DNA from: Pyrus communis
Taxonomy: Eukaryota > Streptophyta > Magnoliopsida > Rosales > Rosaceae
Length of the DNA: 64,000 nt
Assembly: GCF_963583255.1 (NCBI RefSeq)
Contig: NC_084807.1
Span: 26,108,381 to 26,172,380, forward strand
Reading direction: 5' to 3'
Shown here: positions 13,301-32,002 of the stretch, piece after piece
How the letters are laid out: every line of letters starts with the position of its first letter
How positions within the stretch are numbered: position 1 is the first letter of the stretch
Notes under the pieces: generated by a model
Told to the model about the DNA's origin: nothing
Seen by the model: the letters and a program-made list of their open reading frames with translations, nothing else
The model's database searches: none
Program-made: the position numbers and the translations under genes

Positions 13301-14150
13301 TGATTGTGTATGCAGATATTTTACAATTGCAGCAATTTTAACCAGTTTCTAACAGTTTGTGGCTTTTACTTGTTCATTCGGACCTCGTTTCGTTATTTCA
13401 TTGCGTGCTCTGTTGAATTGGCCCTCCCATTTTTGACTGATACTATGTTTAGGCCTTCCTATTGGTAATGTAGATAGGTCTTGCAGGAAACGGTATGTGA
13501 ATGAAGTGCCGGTTAGTCGGAAGCGGTATACGCTCTGTTGAGGTCGGGGTTCGGTTCTTCCTTTGTTTCGTGTTGAGTGTAGGATGTCTCTATCTCGAGC
13601 ACAAAAATTGAAATCTAAAAGACCCAAATGATATTGGACGGGCCGTTCAAGAACTAGTTCATTGACATGTGCAAAAACTTGAAAGTTCTTATCCAGATGA
13701 CGATTGAGATTGGACACGATGTGTTAACGATACAACCGTTAAAATTAAATAGCTAGTTGCAATTGGAATTTAATTTTAATCAATGCGATTACCATTGGTA
13801 CGTATGGTTGCATAACATATGAGACGATTTTTGGTACATGTGATATTCTAAAACTATTCCAATTTATGGCGTGGGAGATTTCCGATTAGTATTCGGTGCA
13901 TGGGGAAATTGGGGAATTATGGTATTTGATGCACTCTTTCATTTGGTTGTTAATTGAACTGAAGATTTGATGATCGTGATACGATTATCTATTAAGAAAA
14001 CTAATGAAAATGATTTGAAATTTTTGAGTTTTAATGATAATGGCAAAATAAAGGGTAAAGTGAATAGTACCAAGATTGATTTTTTAATGTAAAAATGTGG
14101 TTTTTCGTTAAAGTGAACAGTACCATGAGTTTTTCGTTAAAACTCCCTTA
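10346..14150. other. SF1 3' region and intergenic
   Basis: About 3.8 kb of T-rich sequence with no recognisable coding gene. The first few hundred bases must include the SF1 3'UTR (an AATAAA lies near 10518). The T-rich, intron-like composition up to about 13.3 kb is compatible with long or spliced 3'UTR isoforms, but this cannot be shown here. The ORFs at 13068-13292 and 13349-13717 have no recognised domain. Confidence 0.4.
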
Positions 14151-14154
14151 TCCA

Positions 14155-14335
14155 TTTGGAAAGTGTGCTATCGAATTTAAGACCATCTAATCGTGATATG
14201 CATATTTATTTGGATTTCTGCTAACTTAAGACCCTCTAATCGTAATACGCATATCTAATTGAATGTTTGTCGGATTTGAAACCATCTAATCGTAATGTGC
14301 TTATCTATTTTGGATTATAACCAAACTGAAGATTT
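14155..14335. repeat. Tandem repeat, about 60-65 bp x 3
   Basis: Three diverged tandem units, each with a core close to 'taagaccatctaatcgtaat' followed by 'gcatatctatt' (core starts near 14179, 14229 and 14281). A related unit recurs near 22511, in the rearranged duplicate of this region. Function unknown. Confidence 0.75.
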
Positions 14336-14480
14336 TTTTTTTTTTTTTTTTTTTTTCAAGGTAAGAATTTTATTAAATTCGAGTAGAGATGTTTACATCA
14401 GAAGCTAATGTATTAAACATTGCAAACCCTGTCACTAGAAGAGACTTGAGTTGTCCAAGCATTGGGAACGTGATATATCT
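14336..14480 (-). repeat. Possible retroposed fragment with poly(A) tail
   Basis: A run of about 22 T at 14336-14356 is followed by 'aattttattaaattcgagta'. Read on the minus strand this looks like the 3' end and poly(A) tail of a retroposed sequence. No coding domain was recognised and the 5' limit is unclear. Confidence 0.3.
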
Positions 14481-14636
14481 CATTATTTTAGGGCTCCTAT
14501 AAACTCTTCCGGATAGCAGCGTTGTAAATTCCATCTGGCCTCCTCCTCGCAAGCGACCTCGGTTCGACACCAACTGTCTGCAATTTTTTTTCCCCAATTT
14601 TCATTTTTTCCGTTCTTCTTCTCCGTCGAGAAAGCC

Positions 14637-17184
14637 ATGGATAACGACGATCCCTCCGCCCGTCGCAGAAAGGTAACATCCAGCTTCTTCTCTCTCATCA
14701 AATTTCTTGTTCAATTTCACCATAACTCTATCCAGATCTGAAATTCTTGCTCTTCTTCTTTCCAGCGTAGGTTCATTCCCAAAGCCCAACCTCGCAAGAA
14801 CCGTGAACCAACTGTTCCCACTCCGTAACTCTCATAATTTCACCATCCAATTCCCTTTTAATTTCGTTTTCCGTCAAAATTCATAAGATTATTAGTTTTC
14901 ATTTGACATTTTTGTGCTGCGAATCGATGCAGAGACGCCGACGCCGACGACGATGACGGTCAAGAAACTCGTCGGGCCCAGACTCTGCTAAGTGAGTACA
15001 AAGTAAATCTCTCTCGTCTTTCAACTTTTTTTTCTCTCTTTATTGCAGTCCCCTTTTTTTTTTTCTTTCATTTTCTTACTTAAACAATTTCTTATTTTTT
15101 GTATGTGAATTATTTATTCATTTGTTATTTCTTTTTAATTATTGGGGTTTTTTTATTAATTAAATAAAAAACAGATTAAGCGGCTTTTGGCTTTTTTGAA
15201 AAGTTAGGTGAAGTCTTAACAATTTGATCATAGGGTGTGTTTGGTATGGTATTAAATTAGACAAATCCATAATGCTGAAACTTCCTCTTTTGGGGTTTGC
15301 GGTTTAGAGTTTAGACTTTCAAAGTTTCATTTTTCATTTGTCGGAAAATGCGACGGATTGCACATGTGGGTTCGGCAAATTAGCGAAAAAAGTGCGCCCG
15401 TCCTCTTTGCATCTTAAGTTCGAATCCTCCTTACTCTCAAGTTTGAGTCACCGTCCCCCGTATATAGAGTAGTTTAGAAACGGAACATAAATCACAATGT
15501 CTGTTTTGCCAATATGTGCACAGCTGAAATGTGGTTCTCAAGTGTATAACCTGGAATTACTCTTTCGTATGGTATCTATTTTCAAAAGGGTTATGGGCTT
15601 AGTGTAAGAACACGCGCAGATGATTGATTTCTATCAGTTTTGTATAAGCATTAGCTGCACAGATGATTGATTTCTGTTGTTGCATTTACAGGAGAGAAGA
15701 CGGGGAGCTAAACTCGAAAAGAAATGTAATTTCTCGTTAACTTTGCTTGCACGTTACTTGTTTTCTTTAGATTATCCTGGGTTTGCTTTCCGTTCATGTT
15801 TGCTGTTCAATCTGCAGCCTCTGTGCAAGTTGCGTTTGGTCCTGGAGCAGCGGATGCATCCTCAACTTCTATCAGAACATTTGGAGCTGCAAAGGATGCC
15901 GATAGTAGCAAAAGCGGCAGCTTAGTTCTCAAAGGCTCTGATGATGAGCAAAGTCTCTTAACTTTTCCTTCAGCCTCTAATGAAGCTGAAACGGATGTAA
16001 CTATGGAAGATGCTATTGATGCAGAACCATTTCAGATTGTCAAGAAAAATGATGGAGAATGTTGGGTAAGAACGTGCGCCATATATCTGTCTCTATGTCA
16101 CTCTATCTCTCTGTATCGCTCTCTCACAAACACGTCGCTGGTGCTTCTACAGGATTATGAGAATACATACTATCCTACTACTCTCCCTCTCAGGCAACCC
16201 AACTCTGGAGACCCAGGTATTCTTTCTGAAAGCTGGAAAACCGAGGGTTTTCCTTACGCAATTGATGGCACTTTTTGTTTATAGTCGTCTTGTAATTCAT
16301 AGACCTTTTGTTTTGCTTTTAGAAATCCTTAATGCGAACGAATTCGGGGAGGATGCTGAAAAAGAGTATGATGAGAGCACGATAAATCCTGCTTCAAAAC
16401 TCGGGCTGCTGGTGCGTATTAGATTAGTAACTTATTTCTGACGCAACAATGTTAAACACTAAACAGAGTGATATATTTGATGGGATGTTGCTAAATTTGC
16501 TTGACAGGACGAAAAAGTGAAAGCGAAGTTGTTATTCGTTCAACTTCCTTCCATTTTGCCATTGACGTCAAAGCCATCAGCTACTGCAAAGGGCAAAGAG
16601 AAAGTTGGAAGCTCAACATCGCTGGAGAGCTCAGGTGCTCCAAAGAAGGAAGGTAGTTTCGAAGAGTTGCCAGCCGGATTTATGGGTAAAATGCTGGTTT
16701 ACAAGAGCGGAACGATCAAGTTGAGGCTAGGAGATACCCTCTATGATGTAAGTCACAGCCATTAACTTTCCTTAAACTGAAAGAAAGCACGATTATAGAA
16801 GCTTCTTATCATTTTTGTTGGTTATATATATGTTAAATCATTTCGTTATCAAGTTCAATGACGTTCGGTTTACTTACCACTTACTCTTACTGTTTCACAA
16901 TCCATAGAATGATGATTTCGTGTCATCTGTCCGGCACAGAGTAGTTTGTCATTAGATTTCACCTCCAACTGAGTCCAAGCTAGATTCAAGTACTATGAGA
17001 ACATAATGTTCATTCATGTGCTTACGATACGCAGGTTTCACCTGGTTCAGACAGCGTGTCTGCTCAAGATGTTGTGGTAGCCAACGCTGCAGAGAAGAAA
17101 TGCATCGTTCTTGGAGAGCTGCGCCAGCGAGCTGTTGTAACTCCTGATGTGGATTCCCTCCTAAATGTGATTAGCATCGATTGA
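14637..17184 (+). CDS. RPC4: DNA-directed RNA polymerase III subunit RPC4
   Basis: Nine exons join into 329 codons: 14637-14672, 14766-14824, 14933-15002, 15692-15725, 15818-16065, 16153-16216, 16323-16411, 16508-16747 and 17035-17184. All introns are GT-AG and every phase fits. The product matches RPC4 (yeast Rpc53), which with RPC5 forms a TFIIF-like Pol III subcomplex acting in termination and reinitiation in the nucleus. The basic N-terminus (ARRRK, FIPKAQPRK) is followed by an acidic stretch and AQTLLSEYK. The C-terminal RPC4 domain includes VQVAFGPG, LPAGFMGKMLVYKSG and IKLRLGDTLYDVSPG, and the protein ends LLNVISID. The small first exons are inferred from splice sites and phase, supported by their conservation in the copy at 23.1 kb. 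It converges with the minus-strand gene at 18084-20054. Confidence 0.9.
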
Positions 17185-17470
17185 ATGCAGGGATGTCACC
17201 AAAATCTTGTGCATATTGAGGTGTAAGTGGGGGAATTATGCACATGAGAAAGCTGAAATGGTAGATATGTAGAGGAAAATCTTGAGAGTAAATATGATGC
17301 TAGAATTACTGAGGTTGTGTAAGCGGTTGTAGGTGAAAACGAGAAAATTCATCTGGCTAAACAATTTTACTGAATCCATGTGGTTAAACTGTTTTATCTT
17401 CGCAATTTTTTTTAGTTAATCCATCTCTTTCAAGGATAACTATTTTTTTTTTTTTACTGAATCCATGTGG
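17185..17470. other. RPC4 3'UTR and spacer
   Basis: 3' flank of RPC4. A near-identical 20-bp text ('tactgaatccatgtggtta') occurs at about 17369 and again at about 17456, next to the retroposon fragment. No gene seen. Confidence 0.5.
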
Positions 17471-17605
17471 TTACAACAACAACAACAAAGTCTTTCAGTA
17501 TCATAGAGATTCGACGTGAAAACGGAGGGCCGCTTATCGACTACCTAACATCCTCTCCTCCTCCTGGCTTGGGACCAGCTGTGTAAAATAAACTCACACA
17601 GTTGT
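17471..17605 (-). mobile_element. SINE/LINE 3' fragment with (TTG)n tail
   Basis: Read on the minus strand it contains 'gctggtcccaagccaggagg', 'gttaggtagtcgataagcgg' and 'tgatactgaaagactttg', and ends in a (TTG)n run (CAA repeats at 17473-17489 on the plus strand). A TTG-repeat tail is typical of Au-type SINEs and their RTE-like LINE partners in plants. Only the 3' portion is clear. It lies in the convergent spacer between RPC4 and the next gene. Confidence 0.5.
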
Positions 17606-17635
17606 TGTTGTGCACTCATCATAAGAGTATATTTT

Positions 17636-17698
17636 TTAATATAGAAAGTTTGGAGTGCATAGTTAAATTTGTGGAGTGCGAATAACAATTCCCAAACG
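17636..17698. mobile_element. Half-copy of the 37.4-kb MITE
   Basis: 'tagaaagtttggagtgcata' through 'aacaattccc' matches the right half of the palindromic MITE at 37411-37532 (there 'tagaaagaaaaatacac', then 'ggagtaccaataacacttcc'). The left arm is missing, so this is a degraded copy. Confidence 0.5.
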
Positions 17699-18083
17699 AT
17701 ATTCTAAAATTTTACCGGATAGGGAATTCGAACTCGGATAAAGAGTGATCAGATGTTCTTGGCCTTTCAAGTGAAAATTGCGTAGTTGGACCTCAACCAT
17801 TCGAGTTGTGTTTTCGGTTGTAATTGTTGCCAAGAGATTGGGGTGGCAATGAAAAAATCAACTGAATCTCTAAAAAAATGGTAAATTTAACAATATTAAA
17901 CAAAAATCATAGGTAATATCCATAAATCCCCATATTACAGGCAACCTGCAAATGTACCAGCACTGGAAGACCATAACAAAGCACAGTTTGAAACATAAAC
18001 TGCCTAACAATGCAGAGGATTGGAAAACTTCAGCAGCAAGTCATCCAATGGGGATGTACAACGTGATGTCGTCGGATTTAGGG

Positions 18084-20054
18084 TTAAGCCTTGTGGGTTC
18101 GAGTAACCACCACAATCAACATGACCACAACGGAGAGCATGAATGATGTTTTCAGCTTGTCCTCAAAGCGATTGCTGGCTTCTGCTTTCGCGTTTTTACT
18201 GCTTGGAGGTTGAAAGAAGCCGCCCATGACCTTTGTAATTTTATCGATTGCTTCCATGACTTTTGCCATAGTATTTTGAAAGATCCACTTCACAATGTTT
18301 GTAGCTTTATCGTTGTTATCATTGGAATTCTCTTGTGAACTCTCGGAGCTATTGTCTTCATCTGCGTATACGATGAAAAATTCATGTCGAAACCAGCATT
18401 AGTCATGACTGCGTTCATCGAACTTGTGAGCATTGACAAGGTATTTCATCTCTCAACTATTACAAGCTATAAATTTCAAGCTTATTGCTCTTAAGCTATA
18501 AACTTCACCTTATTTCATCACTGAAACACGCATGAATATACATTCATAAGAAACAGAGGCAACTAACGCCAGGAAAACAACACGTAAAAGAGGCATCTAC
18601 GATTAACAAATGACGTTTGTGAACACAATCTGGCACTTGTGAAATCCCATTGGAATATTAGAGTGTTATAATTAGAACCTATAAGTCAATCAATGATACT
18701 CCTTATATTCATATCACACCAACCTGCATAGAAGGACTCCCGGAGCTCGCGCACCACCTCATTGTTCATCACAGCATCCCAAACCGCTGTATCAGATGAC
18801 AATGCCATCACCATTCTCTGCACAAGAAAATACCCTTATGACATAATTCTAAAAATTTCATCCTCAGCAAGATAAAATGTGAAAATAATTTATCAAACAG
18901 AATCAACGGTCTTAATTCTTTAAGTTTACATGCACTCTTGAAACCAAAATTCAGAAATGTATGAGAAACAAAAACGAAAGATGTTAAAGAAAGAACCTGC
19001 ACAGAAGACTCAGTCTGCAAGAGATGGAAAGCATCATAAACTCTCTCAACACCGTGAGACTGCAACATTTTTGAATTATTACAAAGATAGGCAGAAGGCT
19101 CCATCCAATCTAATTCTGACCCAGCTGAAGGTGCTGGGTGCACAAACCCAGCAGAAGGACTTGTAATTTGATCATCCACATCTCTGTCTGACTCAGAACC
19201 AAACTTATCCCTGATGAAAGGACTGAGAACCCTAAACCATTTCATCAAACAAGGCATGATTAGTGTAAACTACGACACTAGGCAGCTAATTAATCATTTT
19301 TTTATTTGACAAGTTGATAAACTAATCTAAATTACGGATTTAAATTCGAATGCGATAGGTCATGCACACCTGCCCTCGCCAACAAGCCTGACCCACAGCT
19401 GCCGCCATAAGTTTTTTTATGACGCGATGATAAATTAGACTAATTTACAAGCACGGGCAGGAAAATTTGAATTCGAGTGCCCCAGGCAATAAAGACTTCC
19501 TTAACGAACCTGCCTAACTCGCGTATACTGTATAAAACACATACACAAAGGGTTTTATTTATCAGAGACAAAGAGTATTGAGTTGCTTACTGTTGAAGGG
19601 CAGAGACAGCATTGTGAACTTCATGCTTGGAAGGAACAGGTCCAAGAACAAAATCATCCATAAACCCATGTGAAAGCCTCTCATCATCCTCACTGCTAAC
19701 CCCATTATCCACAGTCACCCAATCAAAATCATCAAAGCGAGGGGAAGAAGGCCAACTGGGTGTCCCAGAATTGGAAGCCAGAGGAATATTGCATGAGGAA
19801 AAGGGAGAAGTGGGTGAGGAGAGAGAGAGGTTGTGGGAAGAACTGGGCTTCTGGTTGTGCCTAGAAGTGGAGGTGGCGGTAGTATTTGTGGTGGTGGTAT
19901 TAGGAGCAGTAGAACTGGAAGAAGAAGATAGGGGTTCTTGAATTGGTGGGCCACCAGCAATAGTTCTGGTGACTGCTGCCCTACTCACAGCCTTAAACAT
20001 GCTTCCTCCTCCACCTCCTCCGCCCATGCTTCTCCCACCAAACATCATTGACAC
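18084..20054 (-). CDS. Uncharacterised plant protein with a C-terminal membrane anchor
   Basis: Four exons on the minus strand: 20054-19591, 19231-18997, 18817-18724 and 18361-18084, giving 356 residues with consistent phases. I do not recognise a named function. The N-terminus is Gly/Ser/Thr-rich low complexity, followed by an acidic aromatic block (RFDDFDWVTVDNG). Exon 2 carries LSPFIRDKFGSE and a helix (MLQSHGVERVYDAFHLLQTE). Exon 3 encodes SSDTAVWDAVMNNEVVRELR. Exon 4 has an amphipathic stretch (WIFQNTMAKVMEAIDKITKV) and ends in a hydrophobic segment (SFMLSVVVMLIVVV) followed by RTHKA. This is the layout of a tail-anchored membrane protein with a cytosolic body; the anchoring is inferred from hydrophobicity. 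Its last two exons have been duplicated, inverted and captured by the chimeric gene at 23118-24480. Confidence 0.85.
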
Positions 20055-20689
20055 ACAACTTTTAGGTTTTTTTTCTTCTCCTTTTTTAGTTCTCAGACTA
20101 TGTATCTGTGTCTTCCTTCTACGTTATGTAAACCTAGGAGGAGCCAGGATTCAGTGGATTCCTTTGCTTGTCTGCCTCTGACTCCTGTTCTGTTGATATT
20201 CTCGAGGCCAGGATGTGGATAGGTATATAAAATGGTCCAGTGTTCCATTGGCGTCACAAACTTCTTGTTAACAAAAGAAGGCTCCACGTTGGTTCCTTGA
20301 GGGAGGTGGCTTCCCCTTATCTTTCTGTTGTTTATTCGTTTGCTTTTATTTTTGGCGAAAGTTTATTCCTTTGCTTGGATGTATATCATTCATTATTTTC
20401 TGTTGTTATGTACTTAACGTTAACCCAAATAAAAATACTTTATTTATAACATGTGTGAACTTGGCCGGTCGATTAGGGTAGTGAACAATGAACTCAAAGT
20501 TCTAATCTTTATTATATCGGAACAAATAGGGTCCCTAGAAATTTTGAACCAAGTGGTAGATTATCTTATCGGTTAAGACATCTTCTTCATTTTACTATAT
20601 CTTGGTTTCAAATTCTTAGAGTAAGATTCTCTCTGAATTTCTTCCATCCAGATTCCTTCCATCATGTACGTTCAACCGAAAATCAAATA
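20055..20689. other. Divergent intergenic region
   Basis: 5' flank of the minus-strand anchor-protein gene. No gene seen. Bases 20560-20640 include 'cggttaagacatcttcttc' and 'ttggtttcaaattct', loosely resembling tRNA-type A and B boxes of a decayed SINE; too weak to call. Confidence 0.35.
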
Positions 20690-21062
20690 GTCATAAATTC
20701 ATTAACTGTCGTCTTCACTGTTCGTCTTCTTTCTCTTCTCACTCTCTCTCCGACTCTATTCTCCATCTCTCTCTCACTCTTCTCTCTCTTTATCTTCTCT
20801 AACCCTAATTTTCTGACTTTTTTTTGGTTGTGAAAACTTTTTGTTCCCAATGGCCCAACCAATTAGAACCCAGAAAATTTTGCACAAGTTCGGCCTAAAA
20901 ATCACCACTAGGGAGGCCCAAGTTGGGAATGCATGTACAGAAAACGGGAGAACCAATGGAAAATATTATAAAACCCTAGCTAGTTCCGAAAACCTAAATA
21001 AACGTCCAAGTTTTAGTAGAAGAAACGGGAGAGGACGGAGGAGATCGGTCTCTCCACCGACA
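20690..21062 (+). promoter_or_regulatory. Ribosomal-protein-type promoter upstream of the RPL15 pseudogene
   Basis: A CT-rich tract (about 20710-20800) is followed by two GGCCCA site II elements (20852-20857 and 20915-20920) and a telo-box AAACCCTAG at 20971-20979. These three features together are characteristic of plant ribosomal protein promoters. They lie about 90-210 bp upstream of the pseudogene ATG at 21063 and look undamaged, so the locus may still be transcribed. Confidence 0.55.
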
Positions 21063-22158
21063 ATGGGTACTGTACTTGATTGATTAATGATGCTACTGGT
21101 TTTTGCTGACGAGAAAAACTTGGCAAAGTTAAGAAAACATATGAATTTTGTGCTTTCCGTTGCATTTCTCCCCAACCCATGAAAGTGAAACCTAAGAAAT
21201 GAAAATGTTATTTTGCTCGTGTTCTATGGAATTATTATTTTTGTTTCGTCATTGCTTTAGTTTTGAATGTGATGTGTTTTAGTGTTTTGAAATATAATAG
21301 GATACTACCAGTCAGCGTTAGGGAGGAGGAAGCCATCCGATGTTATGAATACAACCAAAATGAAGATTCAGTCGACAAAGATGACTAGTGTTTGTTCCTT
21401 CTTTGGCCCTTCCTGAGACAATAAGGGGGAGATGTTATTTTAGCTAGGGGGAGTTTTTATTTGGTTGTATTCATTATGTATGATGGGGGCGGTAGTATCC
21501 TGGAAAGTTCGAGGAGAATCTGATCGATGGCCGCATTAATGTCGTTCCACTTTCACTCAGAGACTGGAAAAATCGAGTAGCCAAGGCGTGGAGACAAAAC
21601 TACCTTCTAGTTATGGATGTATTAAGATGAGTTTTATAAGTTTTTTTTTTTTTTTTTTTTTTTTGCATTCATTCCTCTTAGTGTATCATGGCTTGGTAGC
21701 CTAAGATTTTCTCAGTGGTGAGTTTTGCCTCGTTGAATTTTACATGTATGTCCACTCTCTATGTTTCTACTAAATATTAATGTGTAGGATTTAGTCTACA
21801 TAACTGGTTAATTTAAACTACATTTTGAATTAGACTATAAGCTTGAACGTATTCACCCCTAAGTTAGATTGGTACCATCCAAGAACTTTCATTAGGGCAA
21901 TTGTTTAACCTAGAAAATTTTTTGCATTGAATTTGAGTTTTTGGACATCCACATAGTTTTGAGAATTGAGAAGTATCTCTCATTTATCACCGTTCAAGTG
22001 GTTGATGTTATACGATATCTTTTACTAAAGAATTTTGCGTGTACCTGAAACGCTATCACGTGATGGAACTAATTTATGTATTATTATATAAGTGGGCGAT
22101 ATAGTTGATATGTCACACTTTTTAGATATATTAATCATTTGAGTGAAATAGTAACATC

Positions 22159-22209
<51 letters not shown>

Positions 22210-22292
22210 GGGAATATTACCCCTTTTAACTGTCTTCCTTGCAGGATCAACTGGATCTGCTTGAACTGTGAAGGGTCTGTAAAACCAACCCA
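21063..22292 (+). pseudogene. RPL15: 60S ribosomal protein L15 pseudogene, copy 1
   Basis: ATGG at 21063 is followed by an intron (21067-21300). Exon 2 starts at 21301 and reads YYQSALGRRKPSDVMN, recognisably RPL15 (…SELWRKKQSDVMR…), but homology stops at 21350. After unrelated sequence, RPL15 intron text resumes at about 21885 and ends at an intact acceptor (22243). Only INWIC-like coding text remains after it. The middle and most of the C-terminus are missing, so no L15 can be made. Homology of 21885-22243 with 27822-28139 shows both pseudogenes derive from the same gene. A T-run (about 21640) and an AT microsatellite lie inside. Confidence 0.75.
22160..22206. repeat. (AT)n microsatellite
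   Basis: About 23 uninterrupted AT units, inside the relic RPL15 intron. The homologous site in copy 2 (about 28090) lacks the expansion and reads 'gggatggcacatataaac'. Confidence 0.95.
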
Positions 22293-22454
22293 TAAGAGAG
22301 GCAGCTGTAATGCTTTCCTTAACGAAAGTGACGTTTAGAGCCCGCCATGTCTTCAAGAACACCTTCCTGGATTTCGGGGATGGTTACTAGGAGGAGTCTC
22401 TGGCATGGATTTCTTAGTCGAGTCCGATGGTTTAACCGGGCAAAGGGATCATCA

Positions 22455-22600
22455 TTCATTGGGGTGTTAATCGAACGTAAGACTATCATGATAAGCTCGT
22501 TCATTTGGATGTCTACCGAACTTAAGACCATCTGATATTAATACGCTATATCCATTTAGGATTATAACCAATCCTAAGATTAGTTGATTATTAATAGTGT
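22455..22600. repeat. Diverged copy of the 14.2-kb tandem repeat
   Basis: 'cgaacttaagaccatctgat' and 'aggattataaccaatcctaa' match the repeat units at 14155-14335. This marks the left part of the rearranged duplicate of the RPC4 region. Confidence 0.55.
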
Positions 22601-22604
22601 CACA

Positions 22605-22770
22605 AAGCCGTCACTTAGTACTATGATCTAGTAGTATTACTTTCACTTGTAAGTGAAAGGTCTTATTTATTTGCTTCGATTCTTGTCAAAAACAAATTGA
22701 ACTCACTTTATTGTTAGTCTATTATGAGACTAAATCCACCATCCCCTAGTGTAGATAATATCGTTTGTTC
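22605..22770 (+). mobile_element. SINE-like repeat
   Basis: Contains 'agtagtattactttcacttg', then 'taagtgaaaggtctta' and 'gcttcgattcttgtc', resembling tRNA-type A and B box spacing. Related sequences occur at 35200-35400 and, reversed, at 51355-51470 and 57925-58045. Family assignment is inference. Confidence 0.35.
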
Positions 22771-22999
22771 AAAAATAAAAAATAATGTCACAAAGCCTGT
22801 TATTACAAGTATATTGGGCGAAATTTGACGAATTGAGTAGTATACTGATGCATTAAGGACTTTTTATTAGCGTTACAAACATAACGCTACAAAGACACGA
22901 ATAAAACATTTTAAGTCTCTTTATCCAATTTTATTAGTGGATTCCTACCAAATTTAGTTAAGTTATTCAAGCATTAGGAGCAAGTATATATGTAATTAT

Positions 23000-23797
23000 C
23001 TATCTCCAGAAACGTTGCCGGATGGCAGCGTGGTAAATTTCGTCTATCATCTTCGAAAACGACCTCGGTTCGACAACCGCCTTATTTTTTTCGTCCTTCT
23101 TCTCCGTCGAAAAAGCCATGGATAGCGACGATCCTTCCGCCCGTCGCAGAAAGGTAACATCCAGCACTTTCTCTCTCATCAAATTTCTTGTTCAATTCCA
23201 CCATAACTCCATCCAGACCTGAAATTCTTGCTCTTCTTCTTTCCAGCATGGGTTCATTCCCAAAGCCCAACCTCGCAAGAACCACGAACCAACTGCTCCC
23301 ACTCCGTAATTCTCATAATTTCACCCTCCAATTCCCATTTGATTTCATTTTTTGTCAAAGTTGATATCATTATTAGTTTTTCATTTGACATTTTTGAGCT
23401 GCGAATCGGTGCAGCGGCGTCGGCGGCGACGACGATGACGGTCAAGAAACTCGTCGGGCGCAGACTCTGCTGAGTGACTACAATGTAAGCTCTCTCAGCC
23501 TTCAGCTTTCAACTTTGTTTTCTTTCTTTATTGCTGTCCGTAATTTATTTATTTATTTATTTTTGCATTTTCTTGCTTAAACAATTTCTTGTTTTTAGTA
23601 CGTGAGTTATTAATTCATTTGTTATCTTTTTAATTATTGGGTTATTTTTTGTTTAAAATAAAAAATAAAGAGATTACCCGGCTTTTGGCTTTTGGCTTTT
23701 TTGAAAAGTTAAATAACTCTGGTGGCAATTTGGTCATAGGGGTGTGTTTGGTATGGTATTAAATTAGACAATCCATAATATGGAAATTTCCTCTTTT
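23000..23797. repeat. Duplicate of the RPC4 5' part (partner about 14490-15290)
   Basis: Direct-orientation copy covering about 120 bp of RPC4 upstream sequence, exons 1-3 and the first 290 bp of intron 3. Homology runs up to 'ttcctcttt' at about 23797, where it switches abruptly to the inverted copy of the anchor-protein gene. The final three RPC4 quarters (exons 4-9) are absent from the copy. Confidence 0.9.
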
Positions 23798-24480
23798 TAG
23801 AATTATGTCATAAGGGTATTTTGTTGTGCAGAGAATGGTGATCGCATTGTCATCTGATACAGCGGTTTGGGATGCTGTGATGAACAATGAGGTGGTGTGG
23901 GAGCTCCGGGAGTCTTCCTATGCAGGTTGGTGTGATATGAATTTCAGTAACGAGTATCAGTAATTGAATTTAGGGTTGTAATTATAACATTCTAACATTG
24001 CAATAAGATTCCACGAGTCTCATATTGTGTTCACGAGCGTCTTTTGTTATTCGTAGATGCCTCTTTTACGTGTTGTTTTCCTGGTGTTAGTTGCATCTGT
24101 TTCTTATGAATGTATGTTCATACGTGTTTCACAAGTTGGATGAATGTAGTCATGACTAATGCTGGTTTCGACGTGAATTTTTCATCATAGACGCAGATAA
24201 AGACAATAGCTCTGATAGTCCACAAGAGAATTCCGATGATAACAACGATGAAGCAACAAACATTGTGAAGTGGATCTTTCAAAACACTATGGCAAAAATC
24301 ATGGAAGCAATCCAGAAAATTACGAAGGTCATGGGCGATTTATTTCAACCTCCAAGCAGTGGAAATGTGAAAGCAGAAGCCAGCAATCGCTTTGTGGACA
24401 AGCTGAAAACATCGTTCATGCTCTCCGTTGTGGTCCTCTTGATTGTGGTGGTTATTCGAACCCACAAGGCTTCACCCTAA
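23118..24480 (+). CDS. Chimeric gene: RPC4 exons 1-3 fused to the anchor-protein last two exons
   Basis: Five exons, 23118-23153, 23247-23305, 23415-23484, 23832-23925 and 24197-24480, join into an open frame of 180 codons. Exons 1-3 (55 codons) are a copy of RPC4 exons 1-3, exons 4-5 an inverted copy of the last two exons of the gene at 18084-20054. RPC4 exon 3 ends in phase 0 and the captured exon starts in phase 0, so the frame runs through. All donors (GTAAC, GTAAT, GTAAG, GTTGG) and acceptors keep GT-AG. The product would have a basic N-terminus (SARRRK), an acidic stretch, the SSDTAVWDAVMNNEVVWELR block and the C-terminal hydrophobic anchor (SFMLSVVVLLIVVV). A lost stop adds two residues (SP). 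The RPC4 domain itself is missing, so Pol III function is unlikely. Expression is unproven; it could be an unexpressed pseudogene that still happens to be open. Confidence 0.65.
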
Positions 24481-24985
24481 ATCCGACGACATCACGTTGT
24501 ATATCCCCATTGGATGACTTGCTGGTGAAGTTTTCCAATCCTCTGCATTGTTGCATTGTTAGGCATTTTATGTTTCAAACCGTGCTTTGTTATGGTCTTC
24601 CAGTGCTGGTACATTTGCAGGTTGCCTGCAAATGGGGATTTATGGATACGATCTATGTTTTTTGTTTAAAGGGGGAGTCCAAGACAACAAGACCCCCCAC
24701 GTTGCAAGAGTCGGATGAGTAACTACACAACTTTACCCTTACTTTACCTATGATTTTTGGTTAATATTAGTAATTGCTTTTTTTCGAGATCAATTAATTT
24801 TTTTCATTACCACCCGAATCTTTTGGCAACAAGTAGAACCGAAAACACAACTCGAACGGTAATTACCAAATAGTTGAGGTCCAACTATGCAATTTTCACT
24901 TGAAAAGCCACGTACATCTCATCACTCTTTATCCGAGTTCTCCATTAGATTTCAATTGTTTAGAATATCGCTTCAGATTTTTTAG
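23798..24985. repeat. Inverted duplicate of 17.69-18.84 kb
   Basis: The plus strand here matches the minus strand of about 17690-18845: end of an intron, the last two exons and intron of the anchor-protein gene, its 3'UTR ('cttccagtgctggtacattt') and the downstream spacer ('aaaacacaactcgaa', 'tctttatccgagtt'). A small insertion and many substitutions show it is not recent. Confidence 0.88.
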
Positions 24986-25019
24986 GTGTCGTAATAGTTT
25001 TCTATTGATTTGTTAAAAA

Positions 25020-25285
25020 TAAAAGGTTTTTTTTTTTTTTTTTGTCAAAATAGTTCATGAGATTGACATAACTCTTTATTTTGATCTTTAACATTGAAAT
25101 CGGTGGAGGTAATCCCTGAGTTTGTCCACCATTAATCATTTTAGTCATTCTGTGAAAAATCTCCGTTAAATGAAAAAGCAAGTAGAGGGGTTGATTGACA
25201 AAATGACCCTCAATTTAATGGAGATTTTTTACGGAATGACCAAAATAACTGACAATTGACAAACTTGTCGATTTTCAATCTGAAG
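25020..25285. mobile_element. Palindromic MITE-like element
   Basis: Long imperfect inverted repeat: 'tttagtcattctgtgaaaaa' and 'tctccgttaaat' at about 25139-25170 pair with 'tttaatggagattttttacg' and 'gaatgaccaa' at about 25215-25245. A T-run lies at its left edge (25026-25041). It sits exactly where the 5' end of RPL15 copy 2 should be, so it probably displaced it. Superfamily not assigned. Confidence 0.5.
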
Positions 25286-25352
25286 GTTGTATTTGGTTAA
25301 TTAATGATGTTACTGGTTTTGGCTGATGAGAAAAACTAGGCAAAGTTAAGAA

Positions 25353-25512
25353 AATGGGTGCATTTTTGCTCACCACCTTATTTAGTACGTTTGATGAGTT
25401 TAAATTTTGAGATTTGTATCCATCCACAACACAGATCTTAAAATTTAAACTTGTTTAATGGTAATAAATGTGGTGAGCATCAACATCACTTGAGAGTGGC
25501 AAGCAAAAATAT
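25353..25512. mobile_element. MITE inserted in relic RPL15 intron 1
   Basis: Compared with the homologous empty site at about 21130 ('gttaagaaaacatatgaa'), about 160 bp are inserted after 'gttaagaaaa'. The insert has imperfect terminal inverted repeats (start 'tgggtgcatttttgctcacc', end reading inward 'aaatatttttgcttgcc') and an inner palindrome ('gagtttaaattttgagat' with 'atcttaaaatttaaact'). Flanks 'ttaagaaaa' and 'ctaacaaaa' look like a 9-bp target-site duplication with two changes. A relative lies at 30658-30885. Confidence 0.7.
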
Positions 25513-26599
25513 TTCCTAACAAAATATATGAATCTTGTGCTTTCCGTTGCATTTCTCCCCAACCCATGAAAGTGAAAAGTAAGATTTGAAGATGTTATTT
25601 TTGCTCGTTTTGTGTGGAATATTTTATTTTGTTTCCGGTTGCTTTAGTTTCGAATGTTTTAGTGTTTTAGTGTTTTAGTGTTTTGGTCCATGTATGGACT
25701 GATTTTGCTGGATATTGTTGTCGTTAGAAATATTTTATTTTCGTTTTTGGTCGAAGTCGTCGGAAATAATTAGAGTTTTTGCCCTCGATAATGTTACACT
25801 TAAAGACGCTTCAAACCTCATATATGCTTTTGAAAAGCACCATTCCTTTTTTTCAATAGAAGAAGGGTACCAAAACTATTTCACAGTCAATTATCAAACA
25901 AGTGTTTTTTTTTCTCCAATTACTCTTAAGTGTTTTGTTTAATTGAACTTATAAGATTGGTTAAGCGTTCTTGAGTATTTAGAGTATTCTTCTTCTGTAA
26001 TACAGACACAGTTATACGAAAAATCAAGAAATAGGATAGATGGTCCATTTTGTTGCATGTTAATGGTGGAAGATAACGGTATTCTTTATCCCCCAACTGC
26101 TCGGTTGGGAATTATACCCGATGTGCTTCAGACTTTTTGACTAAAGTTTACCTCTTTGCAGGCTATGTTGTTTACCGTGTGCGTGGGGTGGACGTAAGAG
26201 ACCAGTTTTTAAGGGTATTGTGTATAGTAAACCCTCAAACCAGGGCGTCACTCAATTGAAATAACAACGGAGCAAGCGCACGGTTGCAGAGTAGCTGGCT
26301 GGCCAGAAACTAATCGGTCTCAAGGTTCTTACTGGGTTAACGAGGTAATCACAACAAGCTGATTAACTTGATTGCATTCATATATTAATTATATACATGC
26401 TGTATTATCTTCTAATTTTAGGGTTTGTCGACAAAATTATGATGGCTTGTTGTGATATATGTGACGGGGGACATTGATCAGTCCCTAAACTGAACGGAGC
26501 AGGCAACCAATGCTTGTACATTTCAAATGTTAACATCGCATATCGATTAATCTTCACATCCTATCGTCTTCTGGAGCAGCCTTTACAGTTTGGGATAGG

Positions 26600-27720
26600 C
26601 CATGAGACCACATTTTCCATTTTATATATTTGTTTGGGCCCAAAATACTATTGTTGGGCCGAGCAGCAGGATGTGCTCGGCCCAAGGTGATGACAAATAC
26701 TATGGGCCGAATAATAAATCCTGGGCCAGATGGCAGGGTCGGCCAAATCCTATCCTAAGTAGTCCGGATAAACGGAAAAGGTCGAGGAAGTCCTGGTGCG
26801 ACCAGGATTCTCGACCGGCAAGGAATGGAGTCTCGAAAAGAAGGAAAATTCAGAATCCCAGTGGGAGTAGGTTTGTTCGAGTTAGAGTCGAAATGGGACA
26901 AGGACTCCCAATCCAAATCAGAATTGGTTTCAAGGAATGGGGTACTATAAATACAAGAAATCATGCAACGGAAAAGCCCTTCAAAATCAGCATACAAAGC
27001 CCTGCGCAAAACCTCTCAAACACCTTGAGATTTTCCCTTTTCTTTTCCTGCTGACACACATTCAGTTTGGATAAACAGCACTGTGGAAGCACCCGGCGAG
27101 CATCTTCAGTTTGGATAAACAGCACTGCTGCCGCAGAATCAGCCGACCGAGAAGCACCTTCAGTTTGGATAAACAGCACTGCGTCGAGGTCGACCGGTTA
27201 TCTATCTAAGTCTCGGCCGAGAAGGGTTTTCGAACCTTTGTTGGCAGAGGTCACCTTGCTAGCCTTTTCGGCATAGTTAGGTGTTACGAATTGCATTGCT
27301 CGGCGTACTGGACGCCGAGTTATTTTATGATTGGATACTCGCAAGTAAGTTTTAGGGTTCGGCATTCCGACGGCCGAACTACGTTTACCATCAAGACATA
27401 CATCACGTTTGAGTACCTGTGCCCATATAGCTTGGTCTCGATTCGACGTGCTTATACTCTTACGAATATAATCACAGTGACCGAATCGGGTTCCGACGAT
27501 TTGTGAACTCCGCAGAATTAGCAGCCTTGTCTTCAGGCTGTAGAACCCAGAGACCGAGAGTGTTCCTTCCTCGGTCGCAATCGCAAGATAGAGAAGTCCA
27601 CGACGCGCTCAACGCGACAACAAATTTTACTCCTCGGCCAAGCTCGGCCGACGAGTTGGCACGCCCTGCATTCAATCGAAGGACGTAGTTAGCTTGTTAG
27701 TTACTCGGCCTGCGCGCCAC
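26600..27720. mobile_element. LTR-retrotransposon-derived insertion
   Basis: GC-richer than its surroundings, with many 'ctcggcc' and 'gggccga' words, three near-identical 23-bp repeats, and 'gttggcacgccc' at 27655, a text typical of the segment just after the 5' LTR in some plant Gypsy elements. No gag or pol frame was recognised. It interrupts RPL15 copy 2 relative to copy 1, which supports an inserted origin. Exact ends and target-site duplication were not found. Confidence 0.45.
27059..27182. repeat. Three spaced 23-bp direct repeats
   Basis: 'ttcagtttggataaacagca' followed by 'ctg' occurs at about 27060, 27108 and 27160, roughly 48-52 bp apart, within the retrotransposon-derived block. 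Spacers between copies differ. Confidence 0.85.
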
Positions 27721-28400
27721 GTAGTTTTTTTAATTTTTAAAGTCAACAATATTAAATATAGAAAATTAGAAACTTAATGCGAGTGCTTGGTACCCTTGAC
27801 TTCTGAATGACATAAGTTAGGGTAATTGTTTAACCTAGAAAATTGTTTGCATTGAATTTGAGTTTTTGGACATGCACATATATAGTTTTGAGAACTGAGA
27901 AGTCTCTCGTTTATCACCATCAACCATTTGATGTTATATGATATCTTTTACTAAAGAATTTTGTGTATAATTGAAACACTGTCACGTGATGCTACTAATT
28001 CACGTGTTATTATATAAATGACCGACATAGTTGATATGTCACACTTCTAGAATATATTAATAATTTGAGTGAAATAGTAAAACATGGGGATGGCACATAT
28101 AAACAGAAAAATTACCCCTTTTAACTGTCTTCCTTGCAGGATTCAACATACAAATACTATGAGGGGCAATCTTGGTTGAAGCTGCCCACAATGCAATCCA
28201 CAACGACACAAGGACGTACGAACTGGATCTGCAATCGGTTCACAACCACAGGGGGCTTGTCGGACTCACTTCTGCTGGAAAGAAGTGCAGAGGCTTGAAT
28301 ATCAAGGGACACTTGCACCGCAAGGTACGACCGTCGAGGAGGGCAAATTGGAAACATGGTATCTCTTCCACGATTTCGTTGAATGTACTGACTTTGCTAG

Positions 28401-30657
28401 TTTATGTTTGGGTTTAGGCATTGGAAGAGAGAAGCTGTCGAGTTTTTCCATAGGTAAACTAGCTTTGGACTATGTATCATACGAATGCTTAAATAAGTTG
28501 GTTTTTGCCCCTTCTATAAGTTCCTTTTTATATATTTAACCAAAAAAACTGGCAGAAAAAAAAATATTTCGGTAATTGCTTTTGTGATTGATTCAATATT
28601 TAAGACATTTCTAAGCCGTTTGTGTGGAAGGCAAATGGTTTGGGCTCGAATGAATGAATCTGTTCACCAAAAAAAAAGAAAATACATAGAAGTTAAATTC
28701 CTTTTGTTTTTGTTCTTTTTGGTGGGTGGCTTTTGCTTTATTTCTTTTAGAATTATTTAAGAATGCCACGTCGTTATCGGATCAATTATTAAAAACTTGT
28801 TAAGTTAATGAGCTTGACACAGCACGATCTATTAAATAACGGATATGACACGAAAACAACACAAACACATCCATTTACCAAGTCTAGCTGTATCCCCCAT
28901 CCAAAAGGCAATCGTTCCTTCAGCTCCCCCAACATTGCCACACACACACAAAATGTCAAAAACCAAAACTTTTTTGCCGTTGACCAAAATTAACAAGAAA
29001 ATAAAACAAACCCCAAATCATGCAAAAATCTAACTGCAAATCAATCTGTCTATTAACACAACCGATAGAACAAGGTATAATGGAAATAATAGAAGTGAAC
29101 ATTTTAACTTTCAACTCAAATGAGCAGAAAGGTTATCTTACGCGTTTAATCATAATGAAAACTAAACGACTTAAATGCTTTTTTAGGTTAGTGGAATTAG
29201 GGCGGAAAGTGTGATGGGTAGGAGTGCATTGGGTTTAGAGTTCGAGATCCTCTAATAAGCCGAAAAACAAAATTGATCAAATTGCTAGTGTAGTTAGCTA
29301 GGTTGATGAGGTTGGAGCCTTAGCGAGACGAAAGAAGAAACTGTGATGATTCATAGGACTCCCACGGGTATATTGGTTGTCCTCCAATATCTCCACAAAT
29401 GACCAACAATGGTAATTATAAGCTTTGAAATCTTGGGCACAAAAGTGGTACAAAAAGAGAAAGATGAAACTTATGATTAAAATGTAGACTAGGGTTGCAG
29501 ACAAGTATCCAACAAAGACATATGAGTATAATCTTCCAAAAGGAAATGATGGTGGTTTTTGAGTTTTTCCTTGGGAGATTGAATTTCCTCCACAGTTTTC
29601 GTAGCATTTAGGAGAAATGTCAGGTAAACTAAATTTGCAAGCTAAATGATGTGTTATCAATAAGAAATAAATACGTTAATTAGCAACTAATAATAATCAA
29701 ATCATCAACTTTCATGTTTTTTAATTTACAAAATTTTGTTTATAAATTTAGTCTCCCGAACATTACCTTAGCACTTAGTCTTTAATTTTCTTTCAAAAGT
29801 ATGAAACAATGCATTTTAAAGAGAAGTGGGTGGGCCAACGAGGCTTGGTTGGGTTGAGAAAGATCATTCTCTTTACTAGAACAAGACCTAGATTCGAGTC
29901 CTGCTGTCGACAATCTTTCTTGGTGTGCAATGTATAAAAACCAAAAAATAAGTTAAAACTCTTTCTATAAGTCCTCCAATAGGCATTTGGTATTCAGAAT
30001 ACCCGCCCCTCTCCTAAACTTTTGTCAATAAAAAAGAGAAAAGCTGGGGTGGGGTGGGGTGGGGTGGGGGGATAAGAAACACTCTATGATCATTTTGTCC
30101 ATGAATAATATATACAAGACAGAAAATGTTATCGAACTCAACTATTTTTCTAATATTTTTCCTAACTATCTCACACAAGATGGAATATTATGCGCGGGAC
30201 TTTGGTGGAAAATTGAAACACTGTTAGCATTAAGATATATAACAGGTGTAAGAAAACATTAACAATATCTCTTTGACTGTATATTATATGTACTTATTAT
30301 ATCTTTGTGGCTGAATTACGAATGCAATTTTCGTTTGATCAACGAATTAAAAGATAGCTTTGAGATCACATTACAATGTGACTGAACTAGCGAAACATGC
30401 ATGTTCAGGTACATGTTTGATGTATGAAAATGAAGCGGATAGATAACCAGGAAGGCACATACTTCTGGATCAATGAATTTGGATGTGCCTTCATGTAAAG
30501 AAGACATAAAAACTAAAAAATATCAGGGCTTTTATCATCTCCTCTTGACCTAACAATGTAATTTGGGGCAGCTTCCCAATACCGTCCCCAACACTTTTCT
30601 ATCCCCTTGCTTTAGAAGGTCTTGTAAATCATTTCCTCGTCGATCTCATTTTTCTAG
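28401..30657. other. Intergenic
   Basis: AT-rich, no recognised gene. A minus-strand ORF at 29298-29660 (120 codons) has one strongly hydrophobic segment (LVYILIISFIFLFLYHF) but no known domain and no splice partner that I could find. A 'ggggtgggg' simple repeat lies at about 30048-30070. Confidence 0.4.
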
Positions 30658-30885
30658 GTGCATTTTTCTCACGTTTAAAGTGATTGGTAATGCTTATCAT
30701 CCTACTTATTAACATTAAGTGAATTTAAATATTGAGATTTATGTTTATTCATTACACAGATCTCAAAATTTAAACTCATCAAACAGTAATAAATAAAGTG
30801 GTGAGCATCACCGTCACTTGAGGATAGTAAGCATCACCATCACTTACGGATGGGAACAAAAATATCTCCCATTTTTCTACACATA
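30658..30885. mobile_element. MITE, relative of the 25.35-kb copy
   Basis: Shares 'ggtgcatttttctcacg' at the left, the inner palindrome ('cagatctcaaaatttaaact'), 'gtggtgagcatcac' and a right end 'aacaaaaatatctccc' with the element at 25353-25512. It contains an extra internal repeat ('agcatcaccatcactta'). Target-site duplication not clear. Confidence 0.55.
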
Positions 30886-32002
30886 CACTCAAAATAACTG
30901 GTGGTGCTCTCAATTGTCTCAACCTATCTTAATTTTTCAGCATCTTTTTCCTTCTAAACAAAACACCAAATGATAGAGCATGGCATGTAACTGCAATGAT
31001 TTTTTTTTTGTATGTTGTTCAAATTCACTTAGACCACAAGGATTCACCCACATATAAAGGTTTCAAATGGGTGATTATTACAAAAAGCTAATCGATCACA
31101 TGGATCGCTCTTAATTACCTTAACTTTCTAAATTAATCTTCCCAACAAGTTGTTTACAAGCTAAACGACAAAATTTTGCTCCTCTTACAACTAGTTAAAC
31201 CCTTTCCCCCTTTTATTAATGATATAACTTGCATTGGGGATCGAAGTCAATTGACCTTCCTTTGTATATTTTATGAATTCTTATAACAAAATGGTAAACC
31301 GTAGGCAAGTATGTTTATCTATTTTCTTATGACCGGATAACCCCCACACCAAAGGCAAGTATACTGTATTACTACTCCAAATTAGACTAAGAAAATGGTG
31401 ATTTAAATCTCGTAAGCAGTAAATTAAAGAAAAATGCTCTATCTACCAAGTTAATTCATCACTTACACATATAAAAGTTGGTAAGTTTTTTTTGGCTTCA
31501 TATACTATGTTAGTAAATATTACTCTATGTATCAGACCTCTAAATATATAGAGGATGTGGATAAGTTTACAAGATCAGAATTCCATGCATGTGTCTTGCT
31601 ACTTAGCACTAATTAAGGTGATATCCATCACAAGACGTCATTTAATTAGACACCAACGTGGAGAGTAAAATATAATTTTGGATAATGTGTTTGAAGCAGT
31701 TGTTAATTACTCCTATTCTTTTTCCCCCCTAAAAGATGAACCACTTTTGGGATTCATCATATGATTCTGCACAAGCATATTAACGATAAGCATAGGTTTG
31801 GGGCATCTCTATATATCTTGTTTCTAAGAATTTGGGAAAAGGTCAAGAGCTCATATTCAAAACATAAAACAACAACAATGAATATATAATGAAGTTTAAA
31901 CAAAAAACACTAATTAAGACGACGAATTGAGTTATTTTCCTTCAAATCAATAAAGTTGACTTGCCCATGAATCTTTTATGGTAGAACTTAAACTTTTTTT
32001 TT

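Follow-up and report, generated by a model that had tools for sequence, protein, structure and literature searches.

Fusion genes of rice have been surveyed in PMC9199173, which lists 310 of them; two of the 35 expressed Type I cases have their parents in the same region. The pear locus described here resembles the Oryza Type I fusion genes in having both parents intact and nearby, in its duplicated copies, and in the retention of introns; local duplication, a criterion for a Type I fusion gene, was found to be its source. It differs from the rice cases in that it would have formed by tandem duplication with an inner inversion, giving an exonic join that was later deleted. It is also older than the mostly young rice cases, and it is a predicted gene known from sequence alone. 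With RPC4, a subunit of RNA polymerase III, the fusion shares exons 1–3 and the 5′ flank, but it lacks the RNA_pol_Rpc4 domain of the parent and therefore cannot stand in for RPC4. With plant tail-anchored proteins labelled PF27707 it shares the last two exons and the membrane segment, but the N-terminal half has been replaced, and the pear copy also lacks a conserved block corresponding to residues 56–89 of the Malus protein P0001. The fusion is a further case of a chimeric duplicate located beside its parents, which is a known kind, and its unusual properties are the inversion step and the second deletion.

The window, i.e., the whole stretch of 64,000 nucleotides of Pyrus communis DNA that was analyzed, is part of contig C5 of a 487-Mb assembly. 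Exons of the anchor gene are numbered 1, 3, 4, and 5, the second exon of the model being the one that matches "anchor exon 3". The following features were recognized, with positions given in the window:

14446..22251, plus strand: copy 1 of the tandem duplication, from self-alignment of the window
14637..17184, plus strand: parent 1, the RPC4 gene, 9 exons, 329 aa, with Pfam RNA_pol_Rpc4 at residues 206–319
18084..20048, minus strand: parent 2, the gene of a tail-anchored uncharacterized plant protein, 4 exons modelled, with relatives labelled PF27707
22958..28147, plus strand: copy 2 of the tandem duplication, consisting of the RPC4 5′ part, the inverted anchor 3′ part, and then direct copies
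22958..23117, plus strand: copy of the RPC4 5′ flank, about 160 bp of homology, a possible promoter
23118..23153, plus strand: fusion exon 1, copy of RPC4 exon 1, from splicing and self-alignment
23247..23305, plus strand: fusion exon 2, copy of RPC4 exon 2, from splicing and self-alignment
23415..23484, plus strand: fusion exon 3, copy of RPC4 exon 3, from splicing and self-alignment
23790..23798, plus strand: join of RPC4 intron 3 to the inverted anchor intron, with a common T run (microhomology), from sequence comparison
23832..23925, plus strand: fusion exon 4, inverted copy of anchor-gene exon 4 (parent 18724–18817, minus strand)
24197..24480, plus strand: fusion exon 5, inverted copy of the last anchor-gene exon (parent 18078–18361, minus strand), with the predicted membrane segment

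Both parents are present and distinct from the fusion. The anchor gene is convergent with RPC4, and its protein has a C-terminal hydrophobic segment. The five exons of the fusion (23118–24480), when spliced, gave 543 nt comprising 180 codons and TAA, without an internal stop. All four introns have GT-AG boundaries and can be aligned to the introns of the parents; since introns were kept, the fusion is not a retrogene or a processed pseudogene. Exon 3 ends at codon 55 (165 nt), so that the phase-0 to phase-0 join is correct. The RPC4 homology (22958–23797, corresponding to 14446–15291) included 713 identical bases of 808 aligned (88%), and the inverted anchor-gene homology (23794–24984, corresponding to 18855–17683) included 971 of 1,063 (91%); both are far above chance. 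Splicing and self-alignment bore out the first-pass annotation, which had described RPC4 exons 1–3 joined to the inverted last two anchor exons, with these introns, this phase, and 180 open codons, as well as many substitutions relative to both parents and no disabling change in this copy. The RPC4 upstream homology, put there at 120 bp, is in fact longer and poorly kept: the fusion and the parent differ in the 5′ flank at 26 of 112 three-way aligned columns, and this flank is the least conserved portion of the RPC4 copy. A tRNA-like promoter upstream of RPC4, considered because of a short B box-like motif, was rejected, since ARAGORN detected no tRNA in 14000–29000 and Rfam gave only sub-threshold matches.

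At the other end of the frame, the parental anchor stop was lost in the fusion by a change of TAA to TCA at 24472–24474, making the frame two codons longer. The C-terminal membrane segment is predicted to be retained at residues 155–173 (mean hydropathy of 2.3). A Pfam search assigned no family to the fusion protein or to P0001, and the RNA_pol_Rpc4 domain PF05132 was absent.

A database search was performed with the fusion protein as a query, and among the 25 matches listed, five were of the fusion type (P0001–P0005). The Malus domestica protein P0001 (214 aa, 8 member sequences on 30 contigs) aligned over the entire fusion, and its locus tag, ACFX13_042474, adjoins ACFX13_042473, which is the full-length anchor protein P0026. 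P0002 (P. ussuriensis × P. communis), P0003 (M. baccata), and P0005 (M. baccata var. baccata) combined a partial RPC4 side with the anchor side, while P0004 (P. × bretschneideri, 126 aa) starts at the exon-4 methionine and comprises only the anchor side, with residues in common with the window copy. The PF27707 label is precomputed on P0001–P0005; the Pfam library search gave no family even for the full-length P0026. All five fusion-type proteins have the C-terminus HKASP, and the final SP was present in none of the seven full-length relatives read, which end in HKA, HSA, or QKA. The two extra C-terminal columns were gapped in about 95%–97% of a 111-protein family table. Other residues common to the fusion-type proteins are HG at 13–14 and S, D, G, and I in the anchor part. 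The common stop loss and common residues lead us to favor, from these sequences, a single origin of the fusion before the separation of Malus and Pyrus. The first-pass annotation had taken the gene to be new, but the presence of a longer form of the same fusion in Malus indicates that the event is older than the apple-pear split and is not new to the pear genome. Fusion-type proteins from other genera of the tribe were not found among the matches listed, which may merely reflect the lack of annotation there. Among the papers searched, none mentioned LOC103961937, RPC4 together with Malus, or ACFX13 with Malus domestica.

Judging by the protein strings only, three of the models are odd. The P0003 model begins in another frame, across an apparently unused exon-2 acceptor; the P0005 model skips exons 2 and 3; and in the P0002 model, the junction exon is read in a shifted frame and the start lies elsewhere. 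These features may represent damage in sister lineages, although annotation choices could also account for them. Disabling mutations in sister haplotypes had been named in the first-pass annotation as evidence against its reading; in sister lineages, such changes would be seen in these three models. An extra in-frame splice acceptor, missing from the parent, is located 6 nt upstream of fusion exon 5 (AG at 24189–24190; 24189–24196) and is apparently used in the P0003 and P0004 models (ADAD versus AD).

The Malus form also differs from the pear copy in structure. Residues 56–89 of P0001 (34 residues) are absent from the window copy; residues 56–64 match RPC4 exon 4, and the rest match anchor exon 3. 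When P0001 was searched against the entire assembly, residues 56–89 were matched only at two full-length anchor genes, and no match was found at the fusion. The original join probably lay inside exons, leading from RPC4 exon 4 into anchor exon 3. Since the Malus form keeps this junction exon and the pear copy does not, the intron-to-intron join at the T run would be the product of a secondary deletion. The deleted exon was bounded by phase-0 introns, which is why the pear frame is still open. The missing stretch contains strongly conserved columns of the 111-protein family table, as well as a predicted helix at P0001 residues 63–84, in a model of modest quality (mean pLDDT of 63, with a low pTM of 0.27). 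The RPC4-derived residues are predicted to be disordered (pLDDT of 42–51).

The fusion arose from a tandem duplication spanning about 8 kb, copy 2 of which contains an inversion. Besides the RPC4 part, self-alignment of the window revealed direct copies of 21071–21288 at 25288–25676 and of 21892–22251 at 27817–28147, so that the inverted anchor piece is flanked on both sides by collinear direct copies. Duplication and inversion, as given in the first-pass annotation, were thereby confirmed, but the join described there, which links intron 3 of RPC4 with the anchor intron, is not the original one because the Malus junction exon is missing from it. The extent of the copied block had been understated, since the whole of 14446–22251 was copied into 22958–28147. 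Weaker matches were observed between 13.9–14.3 kb and 22.45–22.6 kb, which may be due to a repeat.

The homoeologous stretch is located on contig C16, of which 55.5 kb were compared. It contains one RPC4 gene and one anchor gene, convergent, in flanks that are otherwise collinear, and neither a second copy nor an inversion was found in the compared region. The dS between the fusion and its parents was 0.13, which is lower than that between C5 and C16 (RPC4, 0.167; anchor gene, 0.162). Therefore, the duplication probably post-dates the shared genome doubling, with a wide error. A distant relative of the anchor protein was observed elsewhere on C5 (G000, 8556683–8557221), with 41% identity to P0001 residues 129–211 and two stops in one of the two matched stretches.

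We consider it probable that tandem duplication and inversion made the chimera before the apple-pear split, that its junction exon was later lost in pear, and that it is under little or no constraint. As shown by self-alignment, the duplicated block took in RPC4, the anchor gene convergent with it, and the flank on the far side of the anchor gene. An inversion in copy 2 would then have set the anchor 3′ half behind the RPC4 5′ half, in frame; one end is placed in RPC4 exon 4 and the other in anchor exon 3 because the Malus protein crosses an exonic join. The reciprocal half of the fusion was sought in 22252–31000, but no copy of RPC4 15292–17683 or of anchor 18856–21070 was found there; it would have been lost, presumably by a deletion that followed the inversion. 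These events would have taken place before the separation of the apple and pear lineages, most likely after their common genome doubling, and the anchor stop codon would then have been lost in the chimeric copy. In the pear lineage, a second deletion involving the T-run microhomology would have removed the junction exon and shortened the frame. Should the RPC4-derived flank drive transcription and the transcript be spliced, the pear copy would yield a protein of 180 aa, disordered at the N-terminus and with a membrane segment at the C-terminus. Such a product would be devoid of the RPC4 polymerase-assembly domain and of one conserved helix of the anchor family. In pear, this chimeric duplicate is most likely drifting or decaying under little or no constraint, and the apple form is less damaged.

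It is unlikely that the fusion is a functional chimeric gene, in which the RPC4 flank and the disordered N-terminus drive a new tail-anchored form selected in both apple and pear. The open frame in the pear copy as well as in the Malus form, the retained membrane segment, and the partial copy of the RPC4 5′ flank are consistent with function, and more than 44% of rice fusion genes are expressed, according to PMC9199173. Against it stand the poor conservation of that flank, the loss of a conserved exon in pear, the odd models P0002, P0003, and P0005, and the pattern of substitutions, which does not support the protein kept by selection that the first-pass annotation had proposed. In a branch test with the C16 gene as an outgroup (179 of 181 codons), omega values of 0.71, 0.80, and 0.61 were obtained for the fusion, parent, and C16 branches, respectively. 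The test had low power, and the fusion-branch value did not differ significantly from 1 (p = 0.47) or from the parent-branch value (p = 0.87). A dN/dS near 1 across the whole frame had been named in the first-pass annotation as a refuting result, and on this point the outcome does not favor the gene.

Parsimony assigned 16 nonsynonymous, 8 synonymous, and 26 noncoding changes to the fusion branch, compared with 12, 6, and 55, respectively, on the parent branch, with 4 coding and 11 noncoding sites being ambiguous. The ratio of nonsynonymous to noncoding changes was higher on the fusion branch (16:26 versus 12:55; Fisher p = 0.025, or 0.049 with flanks). However, this neutral yardstick is uneasy since noncoding sites of the parents had changed about twice as often as those of the fusion (55 versus 26 of 727 sites; 69 versus 37 of 993 with flanks, p = 0.002). 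With C16 as an outgroup, the excess of parental change was observed in introns (14673–18723 versus 23154–24196), for which gene conversion from a C16-like copy or uneven mutation are possible causes.

Conserved columns were not clearly avoided either. For the anchor part, six fusion rows were compared with 109 family rows (the 111 minus two Malus full-length rows), and 27 of 123 columns were conserved at a level of at least 90%. Nineteen columns changed after the split, two of which were conserved columns, where 3.9 were expected (P = 0.21), and both of these matches fall in P0005. None of the ten columns changed on the Pyrus side coincided with the 27 conserved columns (2.0 expected, P = 0.10). 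An apparent avoidance of conserved columns, based on 16 hand-polarized changes with no matches (P = 0.019), had omitted P0005. Inclusion of this protein erased the signal, so that the claim of selection was withdrawn and the odds of a functional gene were lowered. Conserved RPC4 columns changed in both lineages, namely P17S in Malus and residue 33 in the window copy.

The only argument against pure drift, and a weak one, is the intact frame. No indels were found in 543 coding bases versus four on the fusion lineage in 812 noncoding bases. Among simulated neutral copies, 0.6%–1.8% remained open with all splice sites kept, or 3%–7% at half the indel rate, so that the neutral probability is about 1%–7% before ascertainment. 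The argument is weak because the locus was noticed for being open and because the exon deletion was left out of the count.

Slightly less probable than a functional gene is a transcribed non-coding or pseudogene relic, which would produce RNA from the RPC4-derived flank and no protein of consequence. The near-neutral substitution pattern agrees with it, as does the annotation of the P. × bretschneideri protein only from the exon-4 methionine, while the intact frame and splice sites do not. It overlaps with the explanation by drift, the sole difference being the absence of a translated product. An assembly or annotation artefact is very improbable, and nothing was found in its favor. It is already contradicted by the many substitutions relative to both parents and by the fact that several separate records of Malus and Pyrus contain fusion-type proteins sharing derived residues and the tail.

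Retrocopies of a fusion transcript were also considered, since RPC4 exons 2 and 3 are joined without an intron on contigs C6 and C8. This was rejected: the copies run into RPC4 exons 4 and 5, bear the residues of the parent, and sit in terminal-repeat elements, and therefore derive from RPC4 rather than from the fusion. The two elements (C6, L009 208–3052; C8, L010 481–3099) are related and have direct terminal repeats of 234 bp (98%) and 222 bp (100%), respectively. They bear a fragment of spliced RPC4 cDNA from the 5′ flank (14533) into exon 5, and one of them is annotated as the Pyrus communis protein P0008. Both resemble a non-autonomous LTR retroelement carrying a captured host transcript.

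It is unlikely, at the odds given above for a functional gene, that the apple tribe possesses a functional chimera in which the N-terminus of an RNA polymerase III subunit is carried on a tail anchor and which was trimmed in pear by deletion of a whole exon with the frame kept. If true, it would be a two-step natural record of the trimming of a chimeric protein after its birth. The locus is a datable chimeric gene whose parents are adjacent and which occurs in the sister genera in two structural states, one retaining the junction exon and one lacking it. These two states let the steps of birth and of decay or remodelling be ordered, and function can be tested with RNA and population data from apple and pear.
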